A stretch of DNA of 64,000 nt from Spiribacter vilamensis. GTDB lineage: Bacteria; Pseudomonadota; Gammaproteobacteria; Nitrococcales; Nitrococcaceae. The notes under the pieces were generated by a model. It was not told the origin of the DNA and made no database searches. It saw nothing but the letters and a program-made list of their open reading frames with translations. Below are positions 5,425 through 53,534 of this stretch, piece after piece. The DNA lies in contig NZ_SHLI01000001.1 of assembly GCF_004217415.1 (NCBI RefSeq), positions 1,631,239-1,695,238 on the forward strand. The letters run 5' to 3'. Numbering within the stretch: the first letter of the stretch is position 1; the number at the start of each line of letters is the position of its first letter. The position numbers and the translations under genes are program-made.

Positions 5425-6452
5425 CCGCCGAGACCCGGCGTTACCGCTATACCGACCTGCATGCCGCCGGCGAGCCGGTGCGCATCATTACCGGCGGGGC
5501 GCCGACGCTCGCCGGCGAAACACTGCTCGACAAGCGCCGCGATGCCATGGAGCGGCACGATGCCGTCCGCCGGCATCTCATGCTCGAGCCCCGCGGTCAT
5601 GCCGACATGTATGGCGTCTGGCCCACCGAGCCCGACCACCCGGACTGTGCGCTGGCGGTTCTGTTCATGCACAACGAGGGCTACAGCACCATGTGCGGCC
5701 ACGCCACGATCGCCCTTGGCCGCTGGGTGCTCGAGACCGGTCGCGTGACCCCGACCCCGCCGGTCACCCACTTTCATCTGCAATGCCCCTGCGGCCCGGT
5801 CGCGGTGCGCGTGACAACGCCCGCCGATGGCCCGATCGGCGCGGTGAGCTTTGACAGCGTACCGGTGTTCGCCGGCGCAACGGGACAGGCACTCTCCTTA
5901 CCAGACCACGGCCGCATCGATGTCGATATCGCCTACGGCGGCGCCTACTACGCCGTCCTGCCCGCCAGCCGGCTGGGGCTCGATCTCTACACAAGCGCGT
6001 ACGAGACATTGATTGCGGCGGCCCGGGCGATCATCGTCGCCGGCCGCGAGCAGCTCGTGATCGACCATCCAGATACGCCCGATCTGGGGTTCCTGTACGG
6101 CTGCCTGCTCACCGACGGCCAGGCCCCCTCGGCCAATGGCGAGACCCGTAATCTCTGCGTTTTCGGCGGCGGCCAGGTCGATCGCAGCGCCACGGGCTCG
6201 GGCATTGCCGGCCGGCTGGCGCTCGCCCATCAGGACAACGGCATTGCAGCGGGCGAGACCTGCGCAGTCTCGGGACTGAGCGGCATTGCCTTCGACGGCG
6301 CGATCCGCGAGGTACGGGAGGACGGACGATTGATCGTCACGGTCACCGGGACGGGATACCGGAGCGGCGCCGGCGAGTTCGAGGTGGAGAGAGACGACCC
6401 GCTGCGGGACGGGTTCGAGTTGCCGGCGCGCCTGGCGGAACAGGCCGGCTAA
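5421..6452 (+). CDS. trans-3-hydroxy-L-proline dehydratase (proline racemase family, Cys-to-Thr)
   Basis: The 343-residue protein is a paralogue of the epimerase at 1883. Cys92 (MCGHAT) is kept, but the position of the second catalytic Cys reads SATGSG, with Thr258. Replacing the second Cys by Thr is the known signature of trans-3-hydroxy-L-proline dehydratase, which eliminates water to give delta1-pyrroline-2-carboxylate for the reductase upstream. The start is TTG at 5421, overlapping the dehydrogenase stop as TTGA. A GGGACAGGCAC copy at 5882 encodes GQA at residues 155-157. Last gene of the operon; it ends back to back with a small gene on the other strand. Confidence 0.85.
   Translation: MTAETRRYRYTDLHAAGEPVRIITGGAPTLAGETLLDKRRDAMERHDAVRRHLMLEPRGHADMYGVWPTEPDHPDCALAVLFMHNEGYSTMCGHATIALGRWVLETGRVTPTPPVTHFHLQCPCGPVAVRVTTPADGPIGAVSFDSVPVFAGATGQALSLPDHGRIDVDIAYGGAYYAVLPASRLGLDLYTSAYETLIAAARAIIVAGREQLVIDHPDTPDLGFLYGCLLTDGQAPSANGETRNLCVFGGGQVDRSATGSGIAGRLALAHQDNGIAAGETCAVSGLSGIAFDGAIREVREDGRLIVTVTGTGYRSGAGEFEVERDDPLRDGFELPARLAEQAG
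5882..5892. repeat. GGGACAGGCAC copy in the 3-hydroxyproline dehydratase gene
   Basis: Reads TGQAL; one of only three copies left of 31 kb. Confidence 0.7.
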
Positions 6453-6635
6453 TCAGGCCGGTTTGAGGATCACCTGGTCGGATTCGGCGTGCGCCATCCG
6501 GTAGGGCACGGCACTACAGGCGAAGCGGCGGATGATCCGTTGTGCCTGGGCATGGGCCTCGCGCGCCGGGCCACTGATCACGATTTCCCGCCCGCGGTAT
6601 TCAACCCGGCAGTTCTGCTCCGACGTGCCTGCCAT
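6453..6635 (-). CDS. Small hypothetical protein (60 aa)
   Basis: Sixty codons with a convincing ribosome site (GGCGGAGGCGC just before the ATG). The product is a soluble basic protein with a possible beta-beta-alpha start (CRVEYRGREIVISGP) and an Arg-rich helix; no family recognised. It is convergent with the dehydratase gene with no gap. The clean start and conserved-looking composition make a real gene likelier than not. Confidence 0.5.
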   Translation of the reverse strand: MAGTSEQNCRVEYRGREIVISGPAREAHAQAQRIIRRFACSAVPYRMAHAESDQVILKPA

Positions 6636-6692
6636 GGATGCGCCTCCGCCTGGTTTGGTGCACTGCGAAATCGCGAAGTCTGACGCCCAGCC

Positions 6693-6713
6693 CGCGGGGC
6701 GTAAACCCCCGCG
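6693..6713. terminator. GC hairpin downstream of modC
   Basis: CGCGGGG (6693-6699) and CCCCGCG (6707-6713) form a 7-bp perfect stem with a 7-nt loop between the modC stop and the small gene. No long T run follows, so it is a weak or Rho-assisted terminator candidate. Confidence 0.4.
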
Positions 6714-6726
6714 TCATTAGCCTTTA

Positions 6727-8471: not shown

Positions 8472-9274
8472 TGGGATTCATCCATAGGCTGATAACCGAA
8501 ATCCTGCAGGATACCCGTGGCGGCCGGACCCTGCATAAACGCGAGAAACGCCAGCGCCTGGTCGGGCGAATCGGTCCGCTCGAGAATGACTGCATCCTGG
8601 CGAACCGGGGCATGCCAGTCCGTATCAACCACCTGGTGTGCGCCCGCCGGGCGGTTGTCGTGCCGGGTGTAGGACGCCGCCACCAGCGCATGGCTGACAT
8701 TGCCAGTGGCGAGATACTGGAACGCCTGGCCGACGTTCTGCCCCTGGACGATGCGATCTTCCAGTGCCGCCCACTGACCGGTCGCCTCCAGCGCCTCCCG
8801 CGCGGCGCGGCCATACGGCGCCAGCGCTGGATTGGCGATGGCGAGACGGGTCACCAATTCGGGCCGTAGCCCGGCCAGGCCCTTTGCCGGCAGCGCGATG
8901 CCGGGCCGGGCCCAGAGCACCAGCTGGCCGCGGGCATAGGTGATATGCCGATCGGCGCGGGCCAGCCCCTCGTCCACCAGGCGTTGGGGACGGGCCTGAT
9001 CCGCCGCCAGGAAGACGTCATAGGGGGCGCCGTTGGTAATCTGTGTGTAGAGCTGGCCGGTGGCCCCGGCACTGATCAGCAGCTCACCCCCACCCTGCTC
9101 GGCGAAGGCGTCGGCCAGGGTCTCCAGCGGCGTGAGGAAGTTCGAGGCGACGGCGACATGCAGCGGCGCCGCGCCCGCCGGCACGGCCGCCGTCAGTAGC
9201 GCCATGGCGAGCAGCCACTGCCGCAGTGTCTGGCACCGTCCCTTTCGCGGCCCGCGCATCGTCCGATCGCCCAT
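8468..9274 (-). CDS. modA: Periplasmic molybdate-binding protein ModA
   Basis: The 268-residue protein has a signal peptide (basic start, then WLLAMALLTAAVPAGAA) and the ModA core: VAVASNFLTPLETLADAF, SAGATGQLYTQI, GAPYDVFLAADQARP. It captures molybdate in the periplasm for ModBC. The initiator may be ATG 9274 or ATG 9259; the second gives a more usual signal peptide length. First gene of modABC, divergent from asmA with a 55-bp gap. No ModE gene or obvious ModE box seen. Confidence 0.92.
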   Translation of the reverse strand: MGDRTMRGPRKGRCQTLRQWLLAMALLTAAVPAGAAPLHVAVASNFLTPLETLADAFAEQGGGELLISAGATGQLYTQITNGAPYDVFLAADQARPQRLVDEGLARADRHITYARGQLVLWARPGIALPAKGLAGLRPELVTRLAIANPALAPYGRAAREALEATGQWAALEDRIVQGQNVGQAFQYLATGNVSHALVAASYTRHDNRPAGAHQVVDTDWHAPVRQDAVILERTDSPDQALAFLAFMQGPAATGILQDFGYQPMDESQ

Positions 9275-9329
9275 TTTTCCCTTTCGGCGTTATGATTCCG
9301 AACAAGCATACCAACAAGAGAACCATTCC

Positions 9330-11854: not shown

Positions 11855-12123
11855 GCGATGACACCATCCACTGCATCAAACTCGGTCGCGAAGGCCAGCG
11901 ACTCAAGCGCCAACCCTATCCCGGCGAACTCGGCCAGCGGATCCTGGAGAACGTCAGTCAGGAGGGCTGGAAGATGTGGGTCGGCCACCAGACCATGCTC
12001 ATCAATGAGTACCGCCTATCGCCCATGGACCCGAAGGCCCGGCAATTCCTCGAGCAGGAGATGGAGAAGTTCTTCTTCGGCCCCGGCTCGGCACCGCCGC
12101 CGGACTATCAGCCCGACGAGTGA
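11851..12123 (+). CDS. yggX: YggX family Fe(II)-trafficking/oxidative damage protein
   Basis: The 90-residue protein shows the family pattern: Cys near the N-terminus ([10 protein letters not shown]), [29 protein letters not shown] and [10 protein letters not shown]. YggX proteins protect iron-sulfur enzymes and are usually encoded right after mutY, as here (4-bp overlap). Good SD (AAGAGGAG) inside the mutY end. Confidence 0.95.
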
Positions 12124-12140: not shown

Positions 12141-13220
12141 TTACGCGCCGTCCAGCATCGCCGCCCAGCGAGGCCGCAGGGCGGTTGCCGTCCAGGCGCT
12201 GACATCCGGCGCGGCGGGCGGACTGTGGGCGAGCCAGTCGGCAAGCCGTGCCGCCAGGGCGCCGGCATCGCCGGCGGGATAGCGATGCACCGCCGGGTAC
12301 TGCTCGGGATAGACCAGGGCATCAGGCACCAGCGGCGTAGCACCGGCCGCCGTGGCCTCGAGCATGCCCAGCCCCTCGAACTCGTGGATGGCGGTGCTCA
12401 GCACGATCCCGGCGCGTCGCAGTAACGCATCGTAGTCGGCTCGCGGGACGCGGCCATTGGCGACGATGCGATCGCTCAGTGCCTCTTCGATCCGCGCCAG
12501 TGCCGCCGGCGTCCGGGCCGGACGGCCCCCCAGCAATGCCAGGCGGAACTCTACGCCGCGATCGGCCAGTGCCAGCAACGCCTCGGCGAACACCTCCGGC
12601 GCCTTGTCGTACTCCCAGCGGTGATTCCAGAGGATCAGGCGTGGATCGCGGTCGACGCGTTGACCATGATCGGCAGCACTACTCGGCGCCGATTCGACCG
12701 GCGTTATCGGGACAGGCACGACGTGGGCACGCGGCGCGAGGCGCTCGACGATCCTCGATGGCACCGCGTCGGGCATGCGGCGGAGCAATGTCCCGACGCC
12801 CTCCAGAAAGCTGGTGCGATTCCATTCGGAGTTGAACAGCAAGCGATCCGCCGCCAGCGCGCCGTAGAGCTGGACGATCTGTGGCTCCAGTGATGGCCGC
12901 TGGTCCGGCCCGACGGGATAGGCAAACTGATTTTCGTGGAAGTAGTAATCGGTCGGCAGCCCGGCGAGGGGCGGGTAGAGGCCGCGCAGCGTCGCCAGGT
13001 CCACCATGGAGGTGGCGATGACCCGGTCGACGCCCTCGCTGGCCGCCTCGATTTGATCGAGCCAGGACAGCGGGTTGCCGCGGATGCGCCACTTGAAATG
13101 CCGCCCGGGCAGCGTCAGCAGTCGCCACTCGATTTCGGGAAAGGCCTGTTGAAGCCAGCCCGTCCACCAGGCGTGGCTGTCGGCCTGGTAGGCGGAGAGG
13201 AGGAGGATACGTCGTGTCAT
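12141..13220 (-). CDS. DUF3524 glycosyltransferase, tRNA-queuosine mannosyltransferase-like
   Basis: The 359-residue protein starts MTRRILLLSAYQADSHAWWTGWL and contains LTLPGRHFKWRIRGNPLSW and YYFHENQFAYP, hallmarks of the DUF3524 N-terminal domain. A GT-B C-terminal half follows (LILWNHRWEYDKAPEVF, STAIHEFEGLGMLEATAAGATPLVPD). The animal members (GTDC1/QTMAN) attach mannose to queuosine in tRNA-Asp; the role of bacterial members is not settled as far as I know. The start is the first Met that gives the conserved N-terminus. A GGGACAGGCAC copy lies antisense (12709), giving VPVP. It sits beside tRNA-Phe, which is not a queuosine tRNA. Confidence 0.8.
   Translation of the reverse strand: MTRRILLLSAYQADSHAWWTGWLQQAFPEIEWRLLTLPGRHFKWRIRGNPLSWLDQIEAASEGVDRVIATSMVDLATLRGLYPPLAGLPTDYYFHENQFAYPVGPDQRPSLEPQIVQLYGALAADRLLFNSEWNRTSFLEGVGTLLRRMPDAVPSRIVERLAPRAHVVPVPITPVESAPSSAADHGQRVDRDPRLILWNHRWEYDKAPEVFAEALLALADRGVEFRLALLGGRPARTPAALARIEEALSDRIVANGRVPRADYDALLRRAGIVLSTAIHEFEGLGMLEATAAGATPLVPDALVYPEQYPAVHRYPAGDAGALAARLADWLAHSPPAAPDVSAWTATALRPRWAAMLDGA
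12709..12719. repeat. Antisense 11-mer copy in the DUF3524 gene
   Basis: Reads VVPVPITP on the coding (minus) strand, in the linker between the two domains. Confidence 0.75.
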
Positions 13221-18252: not shown

Positions 18253-19812
18253 ATGGTGAACGCAGCAAACCAGTACGGGACAGGCACACAACGATCGACA
18301 CTGGGCGACCCATGGGTCCTTGGCCTCAGTGCCGGCTTCATCCTGCTATTCATCGCTCTCTCCATCTTTGATGTCGATCTTGTCAGTGGGCTCGTGGGCA
18401 GCGGGTTTGCCTGGACAGCGAAATACCTCGGCTCGTATTTCCAGCTACTGCTGCTGCTGACGTTCGTCATCGCCATCGGCGTGGCGATCTCGCCCGCCGG
18501 CGGGGCCGTGATGGGCGATCTCGAGAAACCCGAGATGAGTTCCTTCCGCTGGCTGGCCATCATCATGTGCACCCTCCTCGCCGGAGGGGGTGTGTTCTTT
18601 GCCGCGGGTGAGCCGGTCTACCACTTTATTGCCCAGACCCCACCCGCTTTTGATGCCGAGACCGGTACGGTCGAGGCCATACGCGGCGCGCTTGCACAGT
18701 CGTTCATGCACTGGGGCTTTCTCGCCTGGGCCGTGCTCGGCGGGCTCACCAGCCTGGTGCTGGCGCATGCGCACTATGTGAATGGCCAGCCCCTGCAGCC
18801 CCGTACCCTGCTCTACCCGGTGTTTGGCGACCGGGTCATGCACGGTGCCTTCGGCGGTATCGTCGATGCCGTCTGCGTCGTCGCCGTGGTGGCGGGGACG
18901 GTCGGCCCGATCGGCTTTCTCGCCACCCAGGTCGCCTACGGCGGCACCGTGCTCTTCGGCCTGCCCGGTGGCTACGGCACCCAGCTCGCGGTGCTCGTGG
19001 TGCTGGGCATTATCTATGTCTCCTCGGCGATCAGCGGTATCCATCGCGGCATCCAGCTGCTGAGCCGCCTCAACGTCTACCTGGCACTGGCCATCGGCGC
19101 CGTTATCCTGCTGTTCGGGCCAACGCTGTTCCTCATTGATGCCTATACCCAGGGAATGGGCGCCTATCTGGGCAACTTCCTGTCCATGGCCACAATGACC
19201 AGCCAGACCGCACCCGAGTGGTGGATGAAGTGGTGGACGGTGTTCTTCTTTGCCTGGTTTATCGGCTACGGGCCGCTGATGGCGCTATTCGTGGCCCGCA
19301 TCTCGCGGGGCCGGACCGTGCGCGAGATGATCCTCGCGGTCTGCGTCGCCGCGCCCATCGCCACCACGATCTGGTTCACGCTGCTCGGCGGCTCGGGGAT
19401 CTTCTACCAGTTGAACGGCGATATCGACCTCGCCGAGGCGCTGACCAACTTCCAGTTCGACGTCGCCACCCTGACCGTGGCCGAGGCCCTGCCCCTCGGC
19501 TCGGTGATGGCCGCCGCCATTCTCGTGCTCACCACGATCTTCGTGGCGACCACCGGTGACTCCATGAGCTACACCATCTCCATGGTGGCGACCGGTCATG
19601 ACCGGCCGAACACGGCGGTGCGGGCGTTCTGGGGCATCACGCTGGCGGTAATGGCCGCGATTCTGCTCTATATGGGGGCCGGCCAGATCTCGGCGCTCCA
19701 GCAGTTCATCGTGGTCACTGCTATCCCGGTGTCACTGGTTCTGCTGCCATCGCTGTGGACCGGTCCGAAGGCGGCCTATGCCATGGCCCGCGAGCAGGGG
19801 CTGGTGCGCTGA
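18253..19812 (+). CDS. BCCT family transporter (betaine/carnitine/choline type)
   Basis: The 519-residue inner-membrane protein has about 12 hydrophobic segments and the family core MKWWTVFFFAWFIGYGPLMALFVARISRGRTVREM; ALAQSFMHWGFLAWAV matches the first substrate-site helix. The usual WTxFYWAWW aromatic cage is modified (FFFAWFIGYGP), so the substrate may not be glycine betaine. Following putA by 79 bp on the same strand, it may import proline, hydroxyproline or a betaine. Residues 8-12 read YGTGT from a GGGACAGGCAC copy at 18277. The short C-terminus lacks an osmosensor extension. Confidence 0.9.
   Translation: MVNAANQYGTGTQRSTLGDPWVLGLSAGFILLFIALSIFDVDLVSGLVGSGFAWTAKYLGSYFQLLLLLTFVIAIGVAISPAGGAVMGDLEKPEMSSFRWLAIIMCTLLAGGGVFFAAGEPVYHFIAQTPPAFDAETGTVEAIRGALAQSFMHWGFLAWAVLGGLTSLVLAHAHYVNGQPLQPRTLLYPVFGDRVMHGAFGGIVDAVCVVAVVAGTVGPIGFLATQVAYGGTVLFGLPGGYGTQLAVLVVLGIIYVSSAISGIHRGIQLLSRLNVYLALAIGAVILLFGPTLFLIDAYTQGMGAYLGNFLSMATMTSQTAPEWWMKWWTVFFFAWFIGYGPLMALFVARISRGRTVREMILAVCVAAPIATTIWFTLLGGSGIFYQLNGDIDLAEALTNFQFDVATLTVAEALPLGSVMAAAILVLTTIFVATTGDSMSYTISMVATGHDRPNTAVRAFWGITLAVMAAILLYMGAGQISALQQFIVVTAIPVSLVLLPSLWTGPKAAYAMAREQGLVR
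18277..18287. repeat. GGGACAGGCAC copy at the start of the BCCT gene
   Basis: Reads YGTGTQ at residues 8-13, in the cytoplasmic N-terminal tail. Confidence 0.78.
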
Positions 19813-31197: not shown

Positions 31198-31250
31198 GGG
31201 ACAGGCACAAAGTTAAAGTTCGGGACAGGCACGAAGCCGGCCCCGAACTT
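31198..31250. repeat. Paired GGGACAGGCAC element between convergent genes
   Basis: Two direct copies (31198-31208, 31222-31232) occupy the 67-bp gap between argO and the rhodanese gene. The second is framed by AAGTTCGGG (31216-31224) and CCCGAACTT (31242-31250), a perfect 9-bp inverted repeat that would form a stem-loop, as REP elements do between convergent genes. Confidence 0.8.
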
Positions 31251-40620: not shown

Positions 40621-40666
40621 GTAGGTTCGGGACAGGCACAAAACAGGCTAGGTTTGGGACAGGCAC
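40621..40666. repeat. Paired GGGACAGGCAC element
   Basis: Copies at 40629-40639 and 40656-40666 in the gap before the dienelactone hydrolase gene. The block starts with GTAGGTTC, part of a tandem TAGGTTCG repeat (from 40615), so a GTAG tetranucleotide precedes the first copy. Confidence 0.8.
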
Positions 40667-40709: not shown

Positions 40710-41492
40710 ATGCGAATCTTGCGTGGAATGACGGCAACCGCAGTGATCCTGGCCGTCCTGTCTGTGGCGGCAAAGGCGGAGATCGTGACCGATTCGATCC
40801 GTTACAGCCACGACGGCGAGGCCTTCGAGGGTTATGCCGCCTATAACGATGCACTGGGCGATGAACAGCCAACAGTGATCATTATCCACGACTGGGATGG
40901 TCTGGGCGATTACGAAAAAACACGCGCAGAGATGCTCGCGCGCAGCGGTTACGCTGCCTTTGCGATCGACCTCTACGGCACCGGCATCCGTCCCGAGCGG
41001 GTTGAGCGTCGGCGTGAACTGACGAATGCCCTCTACGCCGATCGGGCGCGGATGCGCGCGCTCATGCAAGCGGGGCTCGAGGCTGCCGGCACGCAGCAGG
41101 TAATGGACACTGATAACGCCGTCGCCATTGGCTATTGCTTTGGTGGCGCTGCATTGCTCGAACTGGCGCGCTCAGGGGCAGCGCTTGATGGCTTTGTGTC
41201 TTTCCACGGTGGGCTGGGCACACCGGAAGAGCAGAACTATGAACAGGTGGATGGGCCACTGCTCATCCTTCACGGGAGCAGTGACCAGGTAGCGCCGATG
41301 AGCGAGGTCGCCAACCTCACCTCCAGGCTGGACGAGGATGGAGCCACCTACACCATGGAGATTTACGGCGGCGCACGTCATGCATTCACCGATTGGGGAG
41401 CGTCGGATCGATACAACGCCTCCGCGGATCTGCAATCCTGGGCAGCGATGGAGCGATTTTTGGGACAGGCACTTTCCGAGCCGGCTGACTAG
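40710..41492 (+). CDS. Exported dienelactone hydrolase family protein
   Basis: The 260-residue protein has a signal peptide (TATAVILAVLSVAAKA) and the dienelactone hydrolase fold: IIIHDWDGLGDYEK, nucleophile Cys in GYCFGGAAL, Asp in HGSSDQVAP and His in GARHAF. AGGGTAAAG supports ATG 40710. A GGGACAGGCAC copy at 41462 encodes LGQAL in the last turn of the protein. Substrate unknown. Confidence 0.85.
   Translation: MRILRGMTATAVILAVLSVAAKAEIVTDSIRYSHDGEAFEGYAAYNDALGDEQPTVIIIHDWDGLGDYEKTRAEMLARSGYAAFAIDLYGTGIRPERVERRRELTNALYADRARMRALMQAGLEAAGTQQVMDTDNAVAIGYCFGGAALLELARSGAALDGFVSFHGGLGTPEEQNYEQVDGPLLILHGSSDQVAPMSEVANLTSRLDEDGATYTMEIYGGARHAFTDWGASDRYNASADLQSWAAMERFLGQALSEPAD
41462..41472. repeat. 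GGGACAGGCAC copy near the end of the hydrolase gene
   Basis: Reads LGQAL eight codons before the stop. Confidence 0.75.
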
Positions 41493-42952: not shown

Positions 42953-42963
42953 GGGACAGGCAC
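42953..42963. repeat. GGGACAGGCAC copy next to the cbpA ribosome site
   Basis: Context AAGTTTGGGACAGGCACAAA, the fullest consensus form, immediately before AAAGGAA and the cbpA ATG at 42973; it becomes part of the cbpA leader. Confidence 0.85.
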
Positions 42964-42972
42964 AAAAAGGAA

Positions 42973-43899
42973 ATGGAGTATCAGGACTACTACAAGACGC
43001 TTGGCATCAGCCAGGACGCGTCGGCTGAAGAGATAAAGAAGGCATACCGCCGGCTTGCCCGCCGGTATCACCCGGATGTAAGCAAAGAGCCTGACGCGGA
43101 AGCCCAATTCAAGCGCATCTCCGAGGCGTACGAGGTCTTGAAAGACCCGGAAAAACGCAGACTTTACGATCAGCTCGGGGAAAACTATCAAGCTGGTCAG
43201 GACTTTACACCACCGCCAAGCGGCCAACGCTACGGCTCACGGCGAACTTCCGGAGCTGGCACCGAGGAGAACTTCGGCGACTTCAGCGACTTCTTCGAGA
43301 GCCTTTTCGGAGGTGGCGCGAAGACTTCGGGATGGGACAGGCACTATGCCTCCTCGCGTGGTCGCGACACCAATGCCGAGCTGACCATTGACCTTGAGGA
43401 CGTCTACGCCGGCTCAACGAAGACACTTACCCTGAGCACAGCGGGACAGGCACAACGCGAATTGAAGGTAAAAATCCCCGCCGGCGTAACTGACGGGCAA
43501 AAAATTCGGCTCAAGGGACAGGGCGAACCGTCACCGGATGGCAGCGACAGCGGTGACCTTCTAATCAGAATCATGATCAGGCCGCACAGGCACTTTCAGC
43601 TCGATGGGAAAGATGTCTATCTCACGCTCCCGATTTCCCCCTGGGAAGCCGCGCTCGGCGCCACGGTTGCAGTACCAACGCTCGGCGGCAGGGTGGATTT
43701 GAATATCCCGGCCGAGAGCCAGAGTCAGAAGCGTTTACGATTAAAGGGGCGCGGATTGCCGGGGAAGAAAACCGGCGACCAGTACGTTAGCCTTTTGATC
43801 GTGAATCCGCCGGTAGATGGGGAAGCAGCGAAGTCGATGTTCGAATCGATGCAAGCGACACTGGACTTTAATCCAAGAGCTAACCTCCTGTCGGATTGA
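42973..43899 (+). CDS. cbpA: DnaJ-class co-chaperone CbpA
   Basis: The 308-residue protein has a J domain (DYYKTLGISQDASAEEIKKAYRRLARRYHPDVSK, with the HPD motif), a Gly/Phe-rich linker with FGDFSDFFESLFGG, and two C-terminal substrate-binding domains (LKVKIPAGVTDGQKIRLKGQG, PISPWEAALGATVAVPTLGG). No zinc finger, as in CbpA rather than DnaJ. AAAGGAA sets the start at 42973. Repeat copies at 43334 (WDRH, in the linker) and 43443 (GQA). Its last 20 bp overlap the transposase gene on the other strand. Confidence 0.93.
   Translation: MEYQDYYKTLGISQDASAEEIKKAYRRLARRYHPDVSKEPDAEAQFKRISEAYEVLKDPEKRRLYDQLGENYQAGQDFTPPPSGQRYGSRRTSGAGTEENFGDFSDFFESLFGGGAKTSGWDRHYASSRGRDTNAELTIDLEDVYAGSTKTLTLSTAGQAQRELKVKIPAGVTDGQKIRLKGQGEPSPDGSDSGDLLIRIMIRPHRHFQLDGKDVYLTLPISPWEAALGATVAVPTLGGRVDLNIPAESQSQKRLRLKGRGLPGKKTGDQYVSLLIVNPPVDGEAAKSMFESMQATLDFNPRANLLSD
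43334..43344. repeat. GGGACAGGCAC copy in the cbpA linker
   Basis: Reads WDRH in the variable linker after the Gly/Phe-rich region. Confidence 0.8.
43443..43453. repeat. GGGACAGGCAC copy in cbpA
   Basis: Reads AGQAQ within the first substrate-binding domain. Confidence 0.75.
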
Positions 43900-44896
43900 A
43901 TCCACGGTCGGCAGCCGTAAACAGTCTCGCGGCGCTGCGATAGCCCCTGACATAGTGGCGCCCGAGCTGGCGCGCGAGCCCCGCCGAGTGGTCGGGACGC
44001 CCGAGCATCGACTGGCTGTATCGCCGTCGGCCAGTGACAAATTCAATCACTCCGGACGCGGCCAGACCAAGCCGCGCTACGATTGGCGGTAAATCAGCCG
44101 CTATGACCGCCGAGTCTGGTCGCGACATGAATCGCCCGGTCCAGTCGAGGAGTTGCAGATACTCAAGCTCGGGGCCGGGCAGCTTGTCATCCACCGCATC
44201 CCGATCGCCGTTATCGAACGACATGATTGCGGGGTTCTTTGATTCGGGGCCAAGTCTTGATCGGGCAGCACTGAATCGTTGTAGCGCCGAGCATTCCGAA
44301 GCGGCTTCCGGACGGTCTGCCATCCCCGCCCTCACCGGGTTGAGATCAACGTAGGCCATGGCGGCAAGCACGGCACCCTCATCCGCCAGGGCCTGACAAC
44401 GGTAACGGCCCTGCCAGAAGTGGCCGGTCACCCCATCCTCGCGATTGGCGCGTCGGGCAATCGGCTCGTTCAGGCACCGCATGAACCAGGATAGGCTCAT
44501 CAGCCGCGAGCGGTACGCCTCGATCATGCGGTGCACTCCGGGATGAAAAGCAGTCGAGTGATCGGCGTTGATGATTTCATGCATCCAGGCAGGCCCCTTG
44601 AACACGGATAGCCAGCGACGCAGCACCTCGGCGGGCGACCACGACCTTGCTGCTGACTCATCGATCCGAACGACCAGGTGGTAGTGATTCGACATAACCG
44701 CATAGGCGCACAGATCAACGGCGAAGGCATCGACAAGCCGACCGAGCCGCCGGCGAATCCACTCGCGTCGATAGGAGTAATCCTTGCCGGTCAGTGGGTC
44801 ATCGCCGCACAGGAATTGTCGCCGCACGCAGCGCGAGACCAGATGGTAGTAAGGCGTCACATCAAGGGCGATTTGGTTGCGGCGTGGCTGTCCCAT
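43880..44896 (-). CDS. REP-associated tyrosine transposase-type protein (Y1 HUH superfamily)
   Basis: The 338-residue protein has the HUH metal-binding motif in SNHYHLVVRID, the conserved WFMRCLNEPIARRANRE and GHFWQGRYRCQAL block, and AYVDLNPVRAGM, which mark the IS200-like/TnpA-REP group. It is single copy here with no terminal inverted repeats and no accessory gene, as for domesticated REP transposases that act on short palindromic repeats. The N-terminus (MGQPRR) is coded by a one-mismatch copy of the 11-mer (44883-44893). Its 3' end overlaps cbpA by 20 bp; upstream lies a 600-bp gap with repeat copies. Confidence 0.88.
   Translation of the reverse strand: MGQPRRNQIALDVTPYYHLVSRCVRRQFLCGDDPLTGKDYSYRREWIRRRLGRLVDAFAVDLCAYAVMSNHYHLVVRIDESAARSWSPAEVLRRWLSVFKGPAWMHEIINADHSTAFHPGVHRMIEAYRSRLMSLSWFMRCLNEPIARRANREDGVTGHFWQGRYRCQALADEGAVLAAMAYVDLNPVRAGMADRPEAASECSALQRFSAARSRLGPESKNPAIMSFDNGDRDAVDDKLPGPELEYLQLLDWTGRFMSRPDSAVIAADLPPIVARLGLAASGVIEFVTGRRRYSQSMLGRPDHSAGLARQLGRHYVRGYRSAARLFTAADRGFNPTGG
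44883..44893. repeat. Variant 11-mer GGGACAGCCAC at the transposase start
   Basis: On the minus strand GGGACAGCCAC, one base from the main motif, overlaps codons 1-5 of the transposase gene. The same variant occurs at 46043 and 46600. Confidence 0.55.
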
Positions 44897-45171: not shown

Positions 45172-45182
45172 GGGACAGGCAC
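45172..45182. repeat. GGGACAGGCAC copy upstream of the transposase
   Basis: Context GACTACGGGACAGGCACAAA, 276 bp from the transposase start codon. Confidence 0.8.
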
Positions 45183-45402: not shown

Positions 45403-45438
45403 GTAGTTCGGGACAGGCACATTATCGGGGCTGTCCCG
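45403..45438 (+). repeat. REP-like element: GTAG plus stem-loop containing the 11-mer
   Basis: GTAG (45403-45406), TT, then CGGGACAG (45409-45416) pairing perfectly with CTGTCCCG (45431-45438) across 14 nt. REP sequences recognised by REP-associated transposases have a GTAG/GTGG tetranucleotide just 5' of such a stem, and a transposase of that group lies about 0.5 kb away. Confidence 0.6.
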
Positions 45439-46201: not shown

Positions 46202-46525
46202 TTGCTAACCGTCACACCCACGGAATTGTACGAGCAGTTAAGTACGGGACAGGCACGTCTCACACTGCTCGACGTCCGCGAAGACTGGGAGACTGCCATT
46301 AATCATCTCGAGGGCAGTGTTTTCGCACCCATGAGCCGGCTCAGTCCCGAGTTTTTAAACGAGCTACCGCAGGATAGAGATACAGTGGTGATATGCCATC
46401 ACGGCATGCGAAGCGCTCAGGTAGTAAACTGGCTCGAGCAAAACGGACACCAGCGAGTCTTCAATTTGAGCGGCGGAATCGATGCCTGGTGCCGTTCCGT
46501 CGACCCCGATCTCCCGCAATACTGA
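46202..46525 (+). CDS. Single-domain rhodanese
   Basis: The 107-residue rhodanese has LLDVREDWE, the catalytic Cys in ICHHGMRSAQ and VFNLSGGIDAW. GlpE-like cytoplasmic sulfurtransferase. The start appears to be TTG 46202; an alternative is not visible without losing the first strand. A GGGACAGGCAC copy at 46246 reads TGQAR just before the VRE motif. Lies between pcm-like and tolC genes. Confidence 0.88.
   Translation: MLTVTPTELYEQLSTGQARLTLLDVREDWETAINHLEGSVFAPMSRLSPEFLNELPQDRDTVVICHHGMRSAQVVNWLEQNGHQRVFNLSGGIDAWCRSVDPDLPQY
46246..46256. repeat. GGGACAGGCAC copy in the rhodanese gene
   Basis: Reads STGQAR in the N-terminal turn before the first core strand. Confidence 0.8.
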
Positions 46526-47862: not shown

Positions 47863-49149
47863 CCCATCGTTAGCGGCCAGAAGCGTCTCGTTAAGAATCT
47901 GCCGCGTCCGAGCGCTCGCGCCGCGGTGCGCCTGGATGACGGCCTCCGCGCTTCGGCCGGTCGCATCAAGAAAGTGCCTGTCCCGAACCAGGCGCTGCAG
48001 TGAATCGGCGAGTTCGTTCGCACCGTGCACCCTTATCCGTGCGCCCTGGTCCTCGAGAAGCCGGTCCACTTGCTGGAAATTCGTGACATGAGGCCCCATT
48101 AGTACGGGCTTACCGAGGGCAGCGGGCTCGAGCGGATTATGACCGCCAACGGGCACCAGGCTTCCACCAACAAACGCGACATCCCCCGCCGACAGATACT
48201 TGATCATTTCCCCGACGGTATCTGCCAGCAGTACGTGAGCGGTCTGATACCGATCGTCGTCCTTGCCGAGCTGCGACGCCTTGATAACGTGCCTGTCCCA
48301 AACCTCGGCCCCCTCACCAGCCGGCCACCGAAACCGTTCCGGATGCCGAGGCACGACGATGAGCATCGCGTCGGGAAAAGCCGCAAGCAGTGCCTCGTGT
48401 GCCTCGCGGACCTGGTCCGCCTCTCCCTGCCTGAGACTCGCCGCTACCCAGACGAAACGTTCAGGCCCGATCCGCGCTCGTAACCTTTGACCCGCCACAA
48501 CCTGTCTGTGGTCAATCGCCTGGTCGAATTTGAGATTGCCGGTGACATGGATCTTCCGGTTCGGGACACCCATATTGTGAAAACGCCCAGCGTCTTCCTC
48601 GGTTTGCGCGCAAAGGCAGGCTATACCTTGAAGCGACTGGCGTATCAGCGCGCCAAAACGCGCGTAACGCGCCAGGCTCGCGGGGCTCAGCCTGGCGTTG
48701 ATCAAGGCGACCGGGATACCGCGTGCCGCCAACGCCGCGAACCGGTTGGGCCAGATCTCGAGCTCGATGAAAATCGCCGCCCGGGGTGACAGGGCGCCGA
48801 CAAAGCGGTCGACCGCCGTCGGCACATCAACGGGTGGATAGCCGCTTTGCACGCTCGCTCCGTAGCGACTGCGGATCGTTTCCAGTCCGGTTGGCGTATT
48901 CGTGGTGATGAAAAGCGGCCAGCCATCTTCAAGCAACCGGTCGATAAAGCTCTGCGCAGCGCGCGCTTCGCCGACCGATGCAGCGTGGACCCAGATCGCT
49001 CCCGGGGCCGGCGGTTGATCACGATAGTCGCCCCAGCGCTGGTGCAGCCCCCCTTTATACGCCGGGTTCCTGCGCCGGAGTCGCCACAGATAAAACCGGT
49101 AGGCGGGCGAGAGACAGCGTGACAGCATGCGATACGTGGTCAGATTCAT
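47845..49149 (-). CDS. waaA: 3-deoxy-D-manno-octulosonic acid (Kdo) transferase
   Basis: The 434-residue inner-membrane glycosyltransferase adds Kdo to lipid A precursor. It has an N-terminal anchor helix region, IWVHAASVGEARAA, IFIELEIWPN, TGNLKFD, and the GT-B donor site AFVGGSLVPVGGHNPLEPAALGKPVLMGPH. The start at 49149 gives the conserved N-terminus; an in-frame ATG at 49194 would add a leader made partly of the 11-mer (MGQAR). Internal copies at 47974 (RDRHF) and 48289 (WDRHV). With kdkA next door, this is probably a monofunctional Kdo transferase. Confidence 0.95.
   Translation of the reverse strand: MNLTTYRMLSRCLSPAYRFYLWRLRRRNPAYKGGLHQRWGDYRDQPPAPGAIWVHAASVGEARAAQSFIDRLLEDGWPLFITTNTPTGLETIRSRYGASVQSGYPPVDVPTAVDRFVGALSPRAAIFIELEIWPNRFAALAARGIPVALINARLSPASLARYARFGALIRQSLQGIACLCAQTEEDAGRFHNMGVPNRKIHVTGNLKFDQAIDHRQVVAGQRLRARIGPERFVWVAASLRQGEADQVREAHEALLAAFPDAMLIVVPRHPERFRWPAGEGAEVWDRHVIKASQLGKDDDRYQTAHVLLADTVGEMIKYLSAGDVAFVGGSLVPVGGHNPLEPAALGKPVLMGPHVTNFQQVDRLLEDQGARIRVHGANELADSLQRLVRDRHFLDATGRSAEAVIQAHRGASARTRQILNETLLAANDGSSLSE
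47974..47984 (-). repeat. GGGACAGGCAC copy in waaA
   Basis: On the coding strand; reads VRDRHFL near the C-terminus. Confidence 0.8.
48289..48299 (-). repeat. GGGACAGGCAC copy in waaA
   Basis: Context GGTTTGGGACAGGCACGTT on the coding strand; reads VWDRHV in a loop between domains. Confidence 0.8.
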
Positions 49150-49181
49150 CGGCTCAATCGCTTGTCGGCGGGCATTACAAC

Positions 49182-49192
49182 GTGCCTGTCCC
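49182..49192 (-). repeat. GGGACAGGCAC copy in the waaA leader
   Basis: Overlaps a possible upstream start ATG 49194 (MGQAR) and lies in the divergent waaA-kdkA gap. Confidence 0.75.
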
Positions 49193-49270
49193 ATTGCTTT
49201 GTCCCGTCGCTTCCGCGCTGAGTGATAACCTCAACGCCGTCGGTGAGGATTCACGGGGATAGGTGCGGTG

Positions 49271-49981
49271 ATGGCCCATATCAACTTCCGACAACAGGAA
49301 CGCGATTACTTTATCAGTCCGGCCTCCGCAGCACCTGATGACCTGCCGGCGTACCTGTTCGATGCGGAGTCACTCGAAGCGCGGGGAGCCATCGAGAGTC
49401 AGGCCCGGGGCCGTGCCGAGGCCTATTTCCTTCGCTTCAACGATCAGCGCCTCGTGCTTCGCCACTATCGTCGGGGCGGGCTACCCCGCCATCTCAGTAA
49501 TGATCGATTCATCTGGGCCGGCCTCTCCCGCTGCCGACCTTGGCGGGAACTTGCAGTCACCGCTCGCCTCCGTGAGCTCGGGCTTTCCGTGCCTGTCCCG
49601 TACGGTGGGCATATCCAAAGGCTGGGACTGAGCTACACCGCGGATATCGTCACGGAACAGATCGCGGGTGCCCGACCTTTGGCCGACCTGGCCAGCGGCG
49701 GTATGCCCGACGCAATCTGGCGCGAAGTCGGTCGAGTGATCCGGTGTTTCCACGACGCAGGCGTTCATCATGCGGATCTCAATGTCCGTAACATCCTTAT
49801 CGATGACCGTTTGAAGGCCTGGCTGATCGACTGGGATCGGGGTCATCTACGGGCAAACACCGCGATGAAGGCACGGAGCCTGGCGCGGCTGCGACGCTCT
49901 TTCAGCCGCGAGCCCACCCTGGCATCGGCTGCAGCTACTGGCTGGCCCGCTCTGATCGAGGCCTACAAGGAGGGTCCCTGA
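49271..49981 (+). CDS. kdkA: 3-deoxy-D-manno-octulosonic acid kinase
   Basis: The 236-residue Kdo kinase of the protein-kinase-like fold has LRHYRRGGL, GVHHADLNVRNILI (catalytic Asp loop) and LIDWDRGHLR (metal-binding Asp). It phosphorylates the single Kdo of lipid A. ATG 49271 is preferred over the adjacent GTG 49268. Antisense repeat copy at 49589 reads VPVPYG. Divergent from waaA, convergent overlap of 19 bp with hldE. Confidence 0.93.
   Translation: MAHINFRQQERDYFISPASAAPDDLPAYLFDAESLEARGAIESQARGRAEAYFLRFNDQRLVLRHYRRGGLPRHLSNDRFIWAGLSRCRPWRELAVTARLRELGLSVPVPYGGHIQRLGLSYTADIVTEQIAGARPLADLASGGMPDAIWREVGRVIRCFHDAGVHHADLNVRNILIDDRLKAWLIDWDRGHLRANTAMKARSLARLRRSFSREPTLASAAATGWPALIEAYKEGP
49589..49599 (-). 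repeat. Antisense 11-mer copy in kdkA
   Basis: GTGCCTGTCCC on the coding strand, reading SVPVPYG. Confidence 0.75.
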
Positions 49982-51423
49982 ATCCGGTCGATGATCGCGC
50001 TGGTGGACTCTCCCTCGATGAAGTCGAGGACTTTGACCTCCCCGCCTGCCGCCGTGACGGCGTCGTAACCGGCAATAGCCTGTGGCTGATAGTCCCCGCC
50101 CTTGACCAGCACGTCCGGCAGTATCGCTTCGATTAGCGCCGCCGGCGTATCTTCCGAAAAAGCAATCACCCAATCCACGGATCCCAGCGCAGCGACAACC
50201 GCCATGCGCTGGGCGAGTGACATCACCGGGCGGCCGGCCCCCTTGAGACGTCTCACGGATTCATCGTCATTGATCGCGACGATCAGGCGATCGCCCAGCG
50301 AACGTGCCTGTCGCAAATAATGGACGTGGCCGGCATGGAGCAAATCGAAACAGCCGTTTGTCATCACAATGCGCTCGCCCCGCTGGCGGAGCGGTTCCAG
50401 AAGCCTGACCAGTGACTGCGGATCGGTGACCTGGTAGTCACCCGGTGACTGACCGGTGGCGGCCTCCAGCTCGGGCACGGTGACTGACGCCGTACCCACC
50501 TTGGCAACGACCAGCGACGCCGCGAGATTCGCCAGTGCCGTGGCCTGCCGCAAATCGACGCCCGCCGCCAGCGACGCCGCCAGCAGTGCGATAACGGTGT
50601 CACCCGCCCCCGTGACATCGAAAACCTCCCGCGCATGGGCCGGCAAATGGAAAGGCTCTGCTCCACGGCGTAGCAGGCTCATACCCGCCTCGCCCCGCGT
50701 CACCAGCATTCCGTCGAGGGAGAGTTCATCGAGGGCTGCGGGAACAACTTCCTCGAGACCGTGCCTGTCCCAAACCTCCTGATCCCGATCAACTCCGCTC
50801 GCCCCCTGCTTTTCCTGGTAGCGCTTGAACTCGCCAACATTCGGGGTCAGCAGTGTTGCGCCTGCGTATCCATGCCAGTCCGTGCCCTTGGGGTCGACGA
50901 GGATCGGGACAGGCACTTCTCTTGCCTTGCCGATCAGTGCCTCGACATGCGAGAGGGTTCCCTTGGCGTAGTCGGAGATGATGACGACATCGGTCTCTGC
51001 GAGCGCCTGCGCGAACACGTCCGTCAGGCCGTTCGTTTCCGTGGCGGTGAACGGCCGCTCGAAATCGAGCCGCATTAGCTGCTGACGCTGACTGAGGACC
51101 CGCAGCTTGCAGATGGTCGGATGGGTGTCGACACGCTGTAGCAGTGGCTCAACGCCCCCCTCCCGCAGGCGAGACTCGAGGAGCCGGCCGTGATCATCGT
51201 CACCGATCAGCCCGATAACACGCACTTGGGCGCCCAGCGCGCCGAGGTTCATCGCAACGTTCGCGGCACCACCGGGGCGCATGTCTTCGCCATCCACCCG
51301 CAGCACCGGCACCGGCGCCTCCGGCGAGATCCGGCTGGTGGGTCCATGCCAGTAGCGATCGAGCATGACATCACCGACCACGAGTACTCGGGCGCTACCA
51401 AAATCCGGCAATTCCAGCTGCAT
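49963..51423 (-). CDS. hldE: Bifunctional heptose 7-phosphate kinase/heptose 1-phosphate adenylyltransferase
   Basis: The 486-residue protein has an N-terminal ribokinase-like domain (VVGDVMLDRYWHG, MRPGGAANVAMNLGALGA, DVTGAGDTVIALLAASLAAG) and a C-terminal cytidylyltransferase-like domain (MTNGCFDLLHAGHVHYLRQARSLGD). It makes ADP-heptose for LPS with HldD at 59757. GAGGG before ATG 51423 sets the start. Repeat copies: antisense at 50906 (EVPVPI) and sense at 50761 (VWDRHG), both in the kinase domain. Confidence 0.95.
   Translation of the reverse strand: MQLELPDFGSARVLVVGDVMLDRYWHGPTSRISPEAPVPVLRVDGEDMRPGGAANVAMNLGALGAQVRVIGLIGDDDHGRLLESRLREGGVEPLLQRVDTHPTICKLRVLSQRQQLMRLDFERPFTATETNGLTDVFAQALAETDVVIISDYAKGTLSHVEALIGKAREVPVPILVDPKGTDWHGYAGATLLTPNVGEFKRYQEKQGASGVDRDQEVWDRHGLEEVVPAALDELSLDGMLVTRGEAGMSLLRRGAEPFHLPAHAREVFDVTGAGDTVIALLAASLAAGVDLRQATALANLAASLVVAKVGTASVTVPELEAATGQSPGDYQVTDPQSLVRLLEPLRQRGERIVMTNGCFDLLHAGHVHYLRQARSLGDRLIVAINDDESVRRLKGAGRPVMSLAQRMAVVAALGSVDWVIAFSEDTPAALIEAILPDVLVKGGDYQPQAIAGYDAVTAAGGEVKVLDFIEGESTSAIIDRIQGPSL
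50761..50771 (-). repeat. GGGACAGGCAC copy in hldE
   Basis: Coding-strand context GGTTTGGGACAGGCACGG; reads VWDRHG in a loop of the kinase domain, where canonical HldE has no such peptide that I recall. Confidence 0.8.
50906..50916 (+). repeat. Antisense 11-mer copy in hldE
   Basis: Reads EVPVPI; VPVPILVDPKG is close to the normal family sequence, so this copy may partly reflect protein constraint. Confidence 0.6.
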
Positions 51424-51522
51424 CAAGACCCTCAAAACGGTAAATTGTGCGAATAATGATTCAGATTCTAGCAGGCACCAAGATCGATCACCCGCCAGCG
51501 CTCAATCAGGGCAGGCGCTAAC

Positions 51523-52482
51523 GTGTCCGACTCCAGCACACCATCGACGGGCACGCGTCATCGCATCGGGCAGCGCCTCTCGCTGGCACTGCTCTGGATG
51601 CTCGGCAAACTGCCGCCGCGTATTGCCCTGTTTATCGGCGAGACCATCGGTCGCCTCTTCAACCGCCTCCCGACCCAGCGACGCCGGGTCGCGCAGAGAA
51701 ACCTCGAGCTCTGCTTCCCGGAGTTGGGACAGGCACAACGTGAGCACATCACTCGCGCCAACCTGCGCTACACCGGGCGAGGGATCGCGGAAACCGCGCT
51801 TGCCTGGTTCGGGGGAGCACGCGTGGATCATATTCCCTGCGACGTCCACGGGCTGGAAAACCTTGAGGCCGCGCAATCCGGCGGATCGCCGGTCATTCTG
51901 TTGTCAGGGCATTTTTTGTGTATCGAGCTTGCCGCGAGACTGATCGGGCCCCGGATCCGGATGGCTGCGATCTACAAGCCGATGCGCAAAAAACCGCTGA
52001 TGGACCGGACAATGCTGCGGAGCCGGTCGCGGACACTGGCGGATGTGCTGCCAAGGACAGACCTCCGCAAAATCGTGCGGGTTCTCAGACAGGGAACGCC
52101 GGTGTGGTATGCGGGAGACCAGGATTACGGCGTCCGCAACAGCGAGTTCGTGTCCTTTATGGGTGTCCAGACACCCACCACCACCGGATTGATGCGTCTC
52201 AGTCGAATGAGCAGCGCGAAGGTCGTACCGCTTTTTTTCAACATCAACGCCGATGGCAACGGCTATGAGATATGGCTGGAGCCGGCGATGGAGGGATTCC
52301 CCACCGGCAACGATCGTACCGATGCCCAGTGGATGAACGCGGTGATCGAGCGCGGGATTCGCGCCCACCCCGAGCAGTACCTCTGGCTCCACCGCCGGTT
52401 CAAGCACCCGCCTCCGGGTGAGCGGCCGGCCTACGGCGATGCGCTGCAGAAACCCCGCAACCGTTATGGAGCAGCACCGTGA
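51523..52482 (+). CDS. Lipid A biosynthesis lauroyl-type acyltransferase (LpxL/LpxM family)
   Basis: The 319-residue inner-membrane acyltransferase has the catalytic H-x4-E motif in LSGHFLCIEL, RRVAQRNLELCFPEL near the start, and GDQDYG and PEQYLWLHRRFKHPP at the end. It adds a secondary acyl chain to Kdo-lipid A. Start GTG 51523. Repeat copy at 51726 (LGQAQ). 4-bp overlap with waaF. Confidence 0.92.
   Translation: MSDSSTPSTGTRHRIGQRLSLALLWMLGKLPPRIALFIGETIGRLFNRLPTQRRRVAQRNLELCFPELGQAQREHITRANLRYTGRGIAETALAWFGGARVDHIPCDVHGLENLEAAQSGGSPVILLSGHFLCIELAARLIGPRIRMAAIYKPMRKKPLMDRTMLRSRSRTLADVLPRTDLRKIVRVLRQGTPVWYAGDQDYGVRNSEFVSFMGVQTPTTTGLMRLSRMSSAKVVPLFFNINADGNGYEIWLEPAMEGFPTGNDRTDAQWMNAVIERGIRAHPEQYLWLHRRFKHPPPGERPAYGDALQKPRNRYGAAP
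51726..51736. repeat. GGGACAGGCAC copy in the lpxL-like gene
   Basis: Reads LGQAQRE after CFPE; context GAGTTGGGACAGGCACAAC. Confidence 0.75.
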
Positions 52483-53534
52483 CTAACCAGCCCGAGGACG
52501 CCGTCCTGGTCGTCGGACCCGGCTGGGTGGGCGACATGGTGATGGCGCAGAGCCTTTTCAAAGCGCTTCGAGAGCAGGCACCCGACCGGCCGGTCGATGT
52601 CGTAGCACCCCCTTGGGGACAGGCACTTCTCGAGAGAATGCCGGAGGTTCGCCACACGTTCACTTTACCGGTACCGCATGGCGAGTTCGGACTGAGTCGG
52701 CGCTGGAGTTTGGGACAGGCACTAAAACGACTCGGCCACTCCCAGGCGATCGTATTGCCACGATCGGCGAAAGCCGCCCTTGTCCCGTGGCTCGCGCGCA
52801 TCCCAAAACGCACGGGCTACCTCGGCGAGCATCGCTACGGGCTGCTTAACGACATCAGACCGCTCGACCGGCAGAGCACCTACCGAACGGTCGATCGTTT
52901 CGTCGCGCTGGGTGATCCGAATGGGTCGGAGTTTGGGACAGGCACAAACCAGCCCACCATCCAGCCACCCGCACTCACCACTTCCCGCGATCAGCAGCAG
53001 GCAACCCTCGAAACTTTGGGAATCGCTGATAAGTTCGGGACAGGCACAATCCTCACCCTCTGCCCCGGCGCCGAGTACGGTCCCGCCAAGCGCTGGCCGG
53101 CGGCGTCGTTTGCGGCACTGGCGAACAGATACCTGGAGCGCGGCTGCCAGGTGGTGTTGCTGGGTTCTGACAAGGATAGTGAGCTGACCCGGGATATCGC
53201 CGCTGCAGCGCCCGGCGTACTCGACCTGGCTGGCCAAACCACGCTGAGCCAGGCGATTGATCTGCTCGCAGCCAGCTCGGTCGTCGTCACCAACGATTCC
53301 GGGCTCATGCACATCGCCGCCGCGACATCCGCGCCGGTCATCGCCCTGTACGGTTCGTCAGATCCTCAATATACTCCGCCACTTAGCGATCGCGCGGAGA
53401 TCATCTACCGCGGCCTCGAGTGCAGCCCCTGCTTCCAGCGACACTGCCCGCTCGGGCACCTTAACTGCCTGCGGGGCATCACACCGGACCATGTAACCCA
53501 CATGATCGACCAGCAACTGGGCCAGATCGCCTGA
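52479..53534 (+). CDS. waaF: ADP-heptose:LPS heptosyltransferase II
   Basis: The 351-residue GT9 enzyme has VVGPGWVGDMVMAQSLFKAL, LCPGAEYGPAKRWP, the donor-site TNDSGLMHIAAATSAPVIALYGSSDPQYTPP and a C-terminal CSPCFQRHCPLGHLNCL. Start GTG 52479. It carries four in-frame repeat copies (52616, 52712, 52935, 53037); two flank a poorly conserved stretch before the LCPGAEYG strand (EFGTGTNQ and KFGTGTIL), so the protein appears lengthened by repeat sequence. Confidence 0.94.
   Translation: MTNQPEDAVLVVGPGWVGDMVMAQSLFKALREQAPDRPVDVVAPPWGQALLERMPEVRHTFTLPVPHGEFGLSRRWSLGQALKRLGHSQAIVLPRSAKAALVPWLARIPKRTGYLGEHRYGLLNDIRPLDRQSTYRTVDRFVALGDPNGSEFGTGTNQPTIQPPALTTSRDQQQATLETLGIADKFGTGTILTLCPGAEYGPAKRWPAASFAALANRYLERGCQVVLLGSDKDSELTRDIAAAAPGVLDLAGQTTLSQAIDLLAASSVVVTNDSGLMHIAAATSAPVIALYGSSDPQYTPPLSDRAEIIYRGLECSPCFQRHCPLGHLNCLRGITPDHVTHMIDQQLGQIA
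52616..52626. repeat. GGGACAGGCAC copy in waaF
   Basis: Reads WGQALLE. Confidence 0.75.
52712..52722. repeat. GGGACAGGCAC copy in waaF
   Basis: Reads LGQALKR; context GAGTTTGGGACAGGCACTAA. Confidence 0.78.
52935..53047. repeat. Two GGGACAGGCAC copies bounding a 102-bp segment in waaF
   Basis: Copies at 52935-52945 (GAGTTTGGGACAGGCACAAA) and 53037-53047 (AAGTTCGGGACAGGCACAAT), both reading FGTGT, 34 codons apart, in the inter-domain region. Confidence 0.82.

Follow-up and report, generated by a model that had tools for sequence, protein, structure and literature searches.

The window analysed here is the whole stretch of 64,000 nucleotides from the Spiribacter vilamensis contig NZ_SHLI01000001.1 (positions 1,631,239 to 1,695,238), and in it lies a transposase gene surrounded by a cloud of exact copies of one 11-base word. 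The gene is of the REP-associated tyrosine transposase (RAYT) type, REP standing for repetitive extragenic palindromic sequence, and on the sequence comparisons given below the word is very probably its recognition sequence. The first-pass annotation had listed 29 exact copies, 24 on the plus and 5 on the minus strand, and all its coordinates and strands hold. It had also judged such a number far beyond chance, and dinucleotide shuffles of the window indeed give a mean of 0.03 copies and a maximum of 1. The genome-wide count that it asked for gives 35 copies in 2,076,021 bases (2 contigs), against 6 for the word read backwards. No fewer than 26 of the 35 lie within 21.9 kb (31198-53047), and the other nine are divided between the rest of the window (three), the 20 kb off its ends (three) and distant places (three). 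The clustering at 31-53 kb was correctly seen, and the absence of copies after 53.1 kb is true inside the window but not beyond it, where two copies follow 1.7 and 2.6 kb past the end. The gene and the copies are as follows, with G000 denoting the own genome in the site comparisons and the other G numbers related genomes.

43880..44896, minus: Y1/HUH tyrosine transposase gene (RAYT type, TnpA-Y1 subclass 2.3-like), 338 amino acids, inside the cloud
31198..31208, plus: intergenic pair (spacing 24), first copy; exact match
31222..31232, plus: intergenic pair, second copy; exact match
37179..37189, plus: linker of cydD-like ABC gene, encodes GTGT; 4 of 14 aligned genomes including the own
37212..37222, plus: cydD-like gene, second GTGT of the linker; 4 of 14 aligned genomes
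38809..38819, plus: cydC-like gene, GTGT linker; G000, G001, G013
39306..39316, plus: cydC-like gene, within ABC signature LSAGQA; G000, G001, G013, G012; three substitutions off in G010
40629..40639, plus: intergenic pair between leuB-like and dienelactone-hydrolase-like genes, first copy; G013 and G010 have both copies, G012 has one and G008 has near-copies
40656..40666, plus: the same pair, second copy; relatives as for the first
41462..41472, plus: near 3' end of dienelactone-hydrolase-like gene (LGQAL); also G013, G012, not G008, G010
42953..42963, plus: immediately upstream of cbpA (DnaJ-like); of the 6 locus-A species compared, 5 have it exactly and G008 has it with one mismatch
43334..43344, plus: cbpA, DRH frame; 6 of 7 aligned species
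43443..43453, plus: cbpA, GQA frame; G000, G001, G012; one base off in G013
45172..45182, plus: between transposase and pcm; exact match
45410..45420, plus: between transposase and pcm; one similarly placed in G001, G013, G008, G010, none in G012
46246..46256, plus: rhodanese-like gene (GQA); 5 species; two substitutions off in G012
47974..47984, minus: kdtA-like gene (DRH); 5 species; one base off in G010
48289..48299, minus: kdtA-like gene (WDRH); 5 species; one base off in G008
49182..49192, minus: 5' end of kdtA-like reading frame (may precede the true start); G000 only
49589..49599, minus: antisense in kinase-like gene (VPVP); 6 of 7 aligned species; two substitutions off in G010
50761..50771, minus: hldE-like gene (WDRH); 4 species
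50906..50916, plus: antisense in hldE-like gene (VPVP); 4 species; two substitutions off, ungapped, in G008 and G010
51726..51736, plus: lpxL-like gene (GQA); 6 species
52616..52626, plus: waaF-like gene (WGQAL); 6 species; ungapped WSLPI in G011
52712..52722, plus: waaF-like gene (LGQAL); 4 species; one base off in G012 and G010
52935..52945, plus: waaF-like gene, variable linker GTGT; 6 species
53037..53047, plus: waaF-like gene, GTGT; 6 species
5882..5892, plus: outlying copy, 38 kb from the transposase; tail or chance
12709..12719, plus: outlying copy; tail or chance
18277..18287, plus: outlying copy; tail or chance

The word is exact, since the window has only 7 copies with one mismatch. 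Three of these (44884, 46043 and 46600) are one shared variant, GGGACAGCCAC, and the copy at 44884 overlaps the start codon of the transposase gene. A bias to GTTY before the word had been noticed, and it is present in the 26 core copies (G at -4 in 17, T at -3 in 20, T at -2 in 18, C or T at -1 in 25); the RAA proposed for the other side is better written R-W-H (A or G at +1 in 20, A or T at +2 in 24, never G at +3). The word is not palindromic and does not contain GTAG, and no hairpin was found at it, the 26 word windows being less structured than random ones (mean minimum free energy -1.98 vs -3.09, flank 10).

Open reading frames (ORFs) contain 19 of the 26 core copies, spread over 14 ORFs of the cluster, 17 in sense and 2 antisense to the gene. 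When the codons of these ORFs are shuffled with the proteins kept, which was the second control called for, a mean of 0.29 copies (maximum 2) is left of the 19, so codon usage does not explain them; in five congeners the observed numbers are 18, 20, 18, 13 and 10 and the means 0.13-0.24. That the word is an artefact of composition or codon usage can draw only on recurring peptides in the reading frames concerned, GQA and GTGT among them, and with both kinds of shuffles and the 6 backward copies per genome against it, its probability is negligible.

The transposase is matched by Pfam PF01797 (E 1.5e-5) and by NF047646 REP_Tyr_transpos (41.5 bits, under its cut-off of 80). H71, H73 and Y182 are invariant across 13 aligned transposases, and H71-Y-H73 and Y182-V-D-L-N-P are invariant or nearly so among the relatives. 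An AlphaFold (AF2) model from 48 sequences has a predicted template modelling score (pTM) of 0.90, and its only fold match in the PDB at E <= 0.001 is 4er8_A (E 7.2e-4), a TnpAREP with bound REP hairpin; searching solved structures by sequence gave weak matches only (best 3khe, E 0.041; sole transposase 2f4f, E 0.32). Its ratio of non-synonymous to synonymous substitution rates (dN/dS) is about 0.08-0.13, within the range of neighbour genes, and the gene is under purifying selection. Length (338 amino acids; subclass median 325), spacing (109-111 from H71-H73 to Y182; about 110 in the subclass), the Y---NP signature, here YVDLNP, the long C-terminal tail and the occurrence in Gammaproteobacteria fit TnpA-Y1 subclass 2.3 of the 2018 survey by Quentin et al. 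(PMC6006769), a placement by length, spacing and signature, with generic profiles (PF01797, NF047646). The survey reports no REP-like sequences beside subclass 2.3 genes. The flanks of the subclass 2.3-like genes studied here, which were not searched for every hairpin, carry linear words, at element ends and in clouds, and the word windows of our cluster are under-structured. A DNA partner can thereby be proposed for a subclass for which none was reported there.

Clouds and dialects within Spiribacter

Two syntenic loci carry the RAYT genes of the genus. Locus A, which lies between cbpA and pcm, is occupied in G000, G001, G013, G012, G008, G010 and G011, and locus B in G005, G004, G002, G003 and G011. 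In all 12 genus regions with such a gene the top k-mer comes from a single word family, and each transposase has its own dialect: at locus A GGGACAGGCAC in six regions and GGACAGGCA in G011, at locus B TGGACACCCA (G005), GGACAGACA (G004), TGGACAGGCA or TGGACAGGCAC (G002 and G003) and AGACACCCAC (G011). The two RAYTs of G011 go with two clouds (GGACAGGCA 44 vs 5, GACACCCAC 4 vs 54). Among 14 genomes, TGGACACCCA has 58 copies in G005 and 1-19 in the others, and AGACACCCAC 78 in G011 and 1-21 in the others, with G003 and G007 raised. The cydDC-cbpA-pcm genes are kept in G004 and G005 without an adjoining RAYT (cbpA was found in G005 only), and there GGGACAGGCAC occurs twice and not at all, respectively, in the genome; the gap between cbpA and pcm is 88 bp in G005 vs 1501-1639 in the others, and the copy at 42953 is missing in G005.

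About 20-50 solo sites surround each gene, and they are most crowded in the nearest 10 kb or so. For the 12 regions taken together, the number of sites per kb is 1.0 (0-2.5 kb), 1.07 (2.5-5), 1.5 (5-7.5), 0.83 (7.5-10), 0.54 (10-12.5), 0.48 (12.5-15), 0.15 (15-20), 0.40 (20-25) and 0.19 (25-30), and the cloud is thus a broad uneven plateau without a sharp peak. A chromosome-organising motif, one of three explanations first offered, finds no support in the genus, where the cloud is found with the transposase at either locus, and the strand of the copies mostly follows the genes. An orientation linked to replication is not supported either, as copies mostly follow the coding strand and both orientations are common in the TGGACACCCA dialect; replication direction was not mapped. 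The surroundings of locus B (L083-L084, L080-L081) have by eye look-alikes of parA, parB, atp, glmU, glmS and polA, and perhaps represent an origin region.

Sites inside genes

Orthologues aligned at widely differing protein identities have the word in the same position, and in the linkers of cydD and waaF the residues that it encodes are constant while their surroundings vary. The genic sites of the window are exactly retained in 17 of 18 cases in G001, 17 of 19 in G013, 16 of 19 in G012, 9 of 19 in G008 and 7 of 19 in G010, where 1.95, 1.09, 1.06, 0.49 and 0.47 are expected; in G011, which uses a shorter dialect, none of 15 is. The retention is seen at the synonymous level: when all overlapped residues are unchanged, the word is exact in 15/15, 15/15, 15/16, 6/7 and 4/4 (same order), against fractions of 0.179, 0.123, 0.123, 0.086 and 0.081 for control 11-mers with unchanged residues. 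Passive inheritance was judged insufficient by this comparison, and retention of 15/15 in each of two congeners vs 18% and 12% means that the word is not simply a REP pasted around.

Alignment with relatives, proposed at the outset as a way to find empty sites, showed that where a genic copy is lacking there is mostly an ungapped homologous 11-mer (47 of 63 comparisons; 16 are gapped). Eleven of the 47 are one base off the word and seven are two, and one exact case is an alignment shift. Genic copies often differ from their relatives by point substitution. The site groups of locus B number 64, with G002 and G003 covered in part only: 48 are found in one species, 13 in two, 2 in three and 1 in four, and some will be due to chance because 9-10-mers were used. 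Turnover there is high. Shared places, e.g. in the polA-like gene (LDTH, EDRH, VDRH), bear each species' own dialect.

Relatives, element ends and residue 159

A collection of 84,980 species was scanned, and the best 80 named loci were analysed. Outside the genus (78 loci, as L100 and L125 are genus members and were left out) the density of GACASNCAY falls from 2.88/kb within 300 bp of the gene to 0.09-0.12/kb at 8-10 kb, and four altered control patterns do not exceed 0.44/kb up to 300 bp and 0.22/kb farther out. A sense copy of NGACASNCAY is found 73-210 bp upstream of the gene in 54 of the 80 loci (opposite orientation 1) and an inverse copy up to 600 bp downstream in 44 (opposite orientation 6), full flanks being present in 69 of the 80. 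The two copies have the same variable dinucleotide in 28 of 33 cases (expected 27%). In one Sedimenticola metagenome-assembled genome, two 98%-identical element copies with differing flanks (L110/L114) start exactly at the word and end 7 bases past the inverse word, which in L114 has one base change. The word is here the end sequence of an element, and the defined ends and different flanks that an insertion sequence (IS) of the IS200/IS605 type would show are seen in this relative. The transposase of the window does not have the usual end pair, the nearest words, at 45172 and 43443, both being on the plus strand.

Six RAYT regions outside the genus were scanned: GGGACAGGCAC is strong in G038, and the GGACACCCA word is weak in G047 and G029. 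In G038 (L093, about 8830-9610) there are 13 word copies in two arrays with steps of 18-33 bases, multiples of three, in open frames with KGQAQ-type repeats, one frame resembling glycogen synthase by eye; sites may have been inserted into genes or have multiplied in tandem there. Truncated left-end copies of elements lie close to a full copy (L108 4338-5043; L163 9180-9909; L124/L145 9665-10008) and start at the word (Marinomonas) or within about 20 bp of it (Shewanella); one-ended transposition is a possible origin. Five same-strand GGGGACAGGCACCC copies in G034 (L180 10700-16201) could be a relic cloud or reflect an assembly gap.

The variation of the word was compared with that of the protein in 74 transposases, i.e. 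64 named loci and 10 genus rows; the other 16 of the 80, which have a stop, an odd length or no word in the flanks, are not on the tree. Word labels were set before the residue scan, from the nearest flanking word for the named loci and from the cloud's word for the genus rows; labelling by the majority word within 2 kb alters 5 of the 74, some to stray-looking matches, and the pre-scan labels were kept. The variable dinucleotide changes 25 times on the tree, vs 38.6 in shuffles. Transposase residue 159 predicts the S base, arginine going with C and histidine with G: R159 is present in 33 of 36 rows with C, and another residue in 36 of 38 rows with G (table 33/3/2/36; p 4.9e-15, standing out among 1160 residue states). 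Independent pairs (starred branches) count 5.5 for the rule, 0 against and 1.5 without difference. Throughout the 12 regions of the genus the majority S base matches residue 159, which is R in G005 and G011-B and H in the other ten, and among 41 further loci, 34 have both residue and word, namely R-C 22, R-G 2, H-G 5, H-C/T 2 and other residues with C 3. For the base after S, residues 140 and 163 are weaker candidates. In the AlphaFold model residue 159 is in a loop between helix 135-154 and strand 166-170. Residues tied to the reading of GTAG in E. coli include W94 to R104 (PMC6006769), and we infer that the loop is equivalent to this segment. A specificity rule of one residue can be tested in the test tube.

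What may keep the sites

In mobile relatives a word of the same type (NGACASNCAY) forms the inverted ends of an element of about 1.3 kb. We hypothesize that the transposase would act mainly near its own gene, in cis, by binding or nicking single-stranded DNA at the word. When chromosomes exchange strands or recombine, alleles bearing the word might then be favoured, and sites born by mutation would thereby become fixed and maintained in the way of uptake sequences, though in the neighbourhood of the transposase only; a shift in the specificity of the protein would shift the dialect of the cloud. For this whole statement, a cloud of recognition sites kept near the gene with biased exchange, we consider the chances even. 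A bolder wording, in which an HUH transposase has set up a site code that is local and reinforces itself, acting in cis, favouring alleles that spell its word, rewriting dozens of positions in core genes and re-spelling them when its DNA-reading residue changes, is tentative and the odds are somewhat against it; if true, bacteria would have a sequence drive limited to cis, intermediate between transposition and the drive of uptake sequences.

Several observations weigh against the main hypothesis. The cloud is not always centred, as the pooled density peaks at 5-7.5 kb and is still 0.40 at 20-25 kb, and the locus-B words of G011 extend about 40 kb to one side. G003 (H159) is mixed, with 38 GACAG- and 21 GACAC-type words within 12.5 kb on either side (25 kb), and the residue rule is broken by 5 of the 74 rows and by 4 of the 31 further R or H rows. 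Confinement to one species of 48 of the 64 locus-B site groups (9-10-mers, unequal coverage) points the same way. No family word lies within 1.5 kb in 13 of the 80 named loci, and the family is among the top four k-mers in only 23 (the top one in 19); it is not among the top k-mers of G018, G054 and G036-C43, short stretches that like those of G047 and G029 are 6-15 kb long, and no RAYT of this kind was detected in G034 in spite of its five clustered copies. Binding and nicking are read from co-variation, and a benefit to the host would give the same retention of sites as biased exchange. We infer that the keeper of the sites is one or the other.

Host benefit is the main rival. A domesticated transposase could have a host function, its sites making up a local nucleoprotein, repair or regulatory domain and each being kept by selection on the organism; the exact retention, the synteny shared at two loci and a dN/dS like that of the neighbours are what one would expect of it. 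But locus A has cydDC and lipopolysaccharide-type genes and locus B look-alikes of polA, glmU and glmS, so no common gene set is served, and the siting near the gene is not accounted for unless the protein also acts in cis. We regard it as unlikely, yet a serious contender. Less likely again is ordinary REP-like behaviour, in which the transposase pastes short pieces bearing the word near its gene, to be passively inherited. This was the explanation favoured at first, and its transposase link stands, more firmly than could be seen from the window alone, with an own cloud in every genus region and residue 159 co-varying with the word; a REP-like repeat moved by the transposase would account for no more than a part. 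It agrees with the hairpin REPs near rayt genes in marine gammaproteobacteria (PMC2817692, PMC8266576), with the truncated left ends, with the in-frame arrays of G038, which look like insertion, and with copies mostly outside ORFs of at least 150 amino acids in L138 (16/16), L141 (17/21) and L119 (9/10), which do so too; these last two also count against biased exchange. It disagrees with L153 (Alteromonas), where 8 of 10 copies are inside such ORFs, with the ungapped homologous sites, 18 of 47 only one or two bases off, with the synonymous-level retention and with the under-structured, non-palindromic word. Mere insertion debris is not what sites in core-looking genes, next to a conserved and sedentary transposase, look like.

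DNA uptake sequences are short exact words with dialects that spread in coding sequence by substitution. The cloud resembles them in all this, and in being tolerated in coding frames, and a DNA-uptake signal had also been suggested, here taken more widely as an uptake or recombination signal that serves the whole cell in trans. The word is however local and not over-represented genome-wide (9 copies in about 2.05 Mb outside the core, vs 6 for the backward word), its presumed reader is a transposase and not an uptake receptor, and there is a dialect per transposase even inside one genome (G011), so that this explanation is very improbable.

The closest known systems are the RAYT/TnpAREP-REP systems (REPtrons), which likewise have a Y1 HUH gene (here with 4er8_A as best fold match), an own short word for each transposase, flanking copies and extras concentrated near the gene. 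REPs and REPINs are mainly extragenic and palindromic (PMC3116915), with a GT[AG]G head on the hairpin, whereas our word is linear, without hairpin or such a head, is found for the most part inside ORFs, is exactly conserved across species and follows a one-residue rule. That REPs accumulate near rayt genes was reported in 2010 for marine gammaproteobacteria (PMC2817692) and noted again in 2021 (PMC8266576), so local clustering alone is not new. IS200/IS605 elements share the Y1 fold, and the mobile relatives here have defined ends as they do, but those elements recognise subterminal secondary structures (PMC6006769) and the ends here are inverted and of 9-11 bases. No account of this cloud was found in the literature searched, which has most subscription papers and all bioRxiv preprints outside its coverage, and the papers containing the letters of the word or related strings look, among those listed, unrelated by title. 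As far as these searches show, the linear word, its subclass, the conserved genic sites, the dialects and the residue rule are new. Up to a limited distance from one gene, core protein genes keep exact DNA words, and why RAYT genes are retained becomes directly testable.

A last observation concerns composition: the part of the window from 52001 to 60000 has a G+C content of 0.51-0.54, vs 0.59-0.70 in the rest, and is possibly an acquired stretch.

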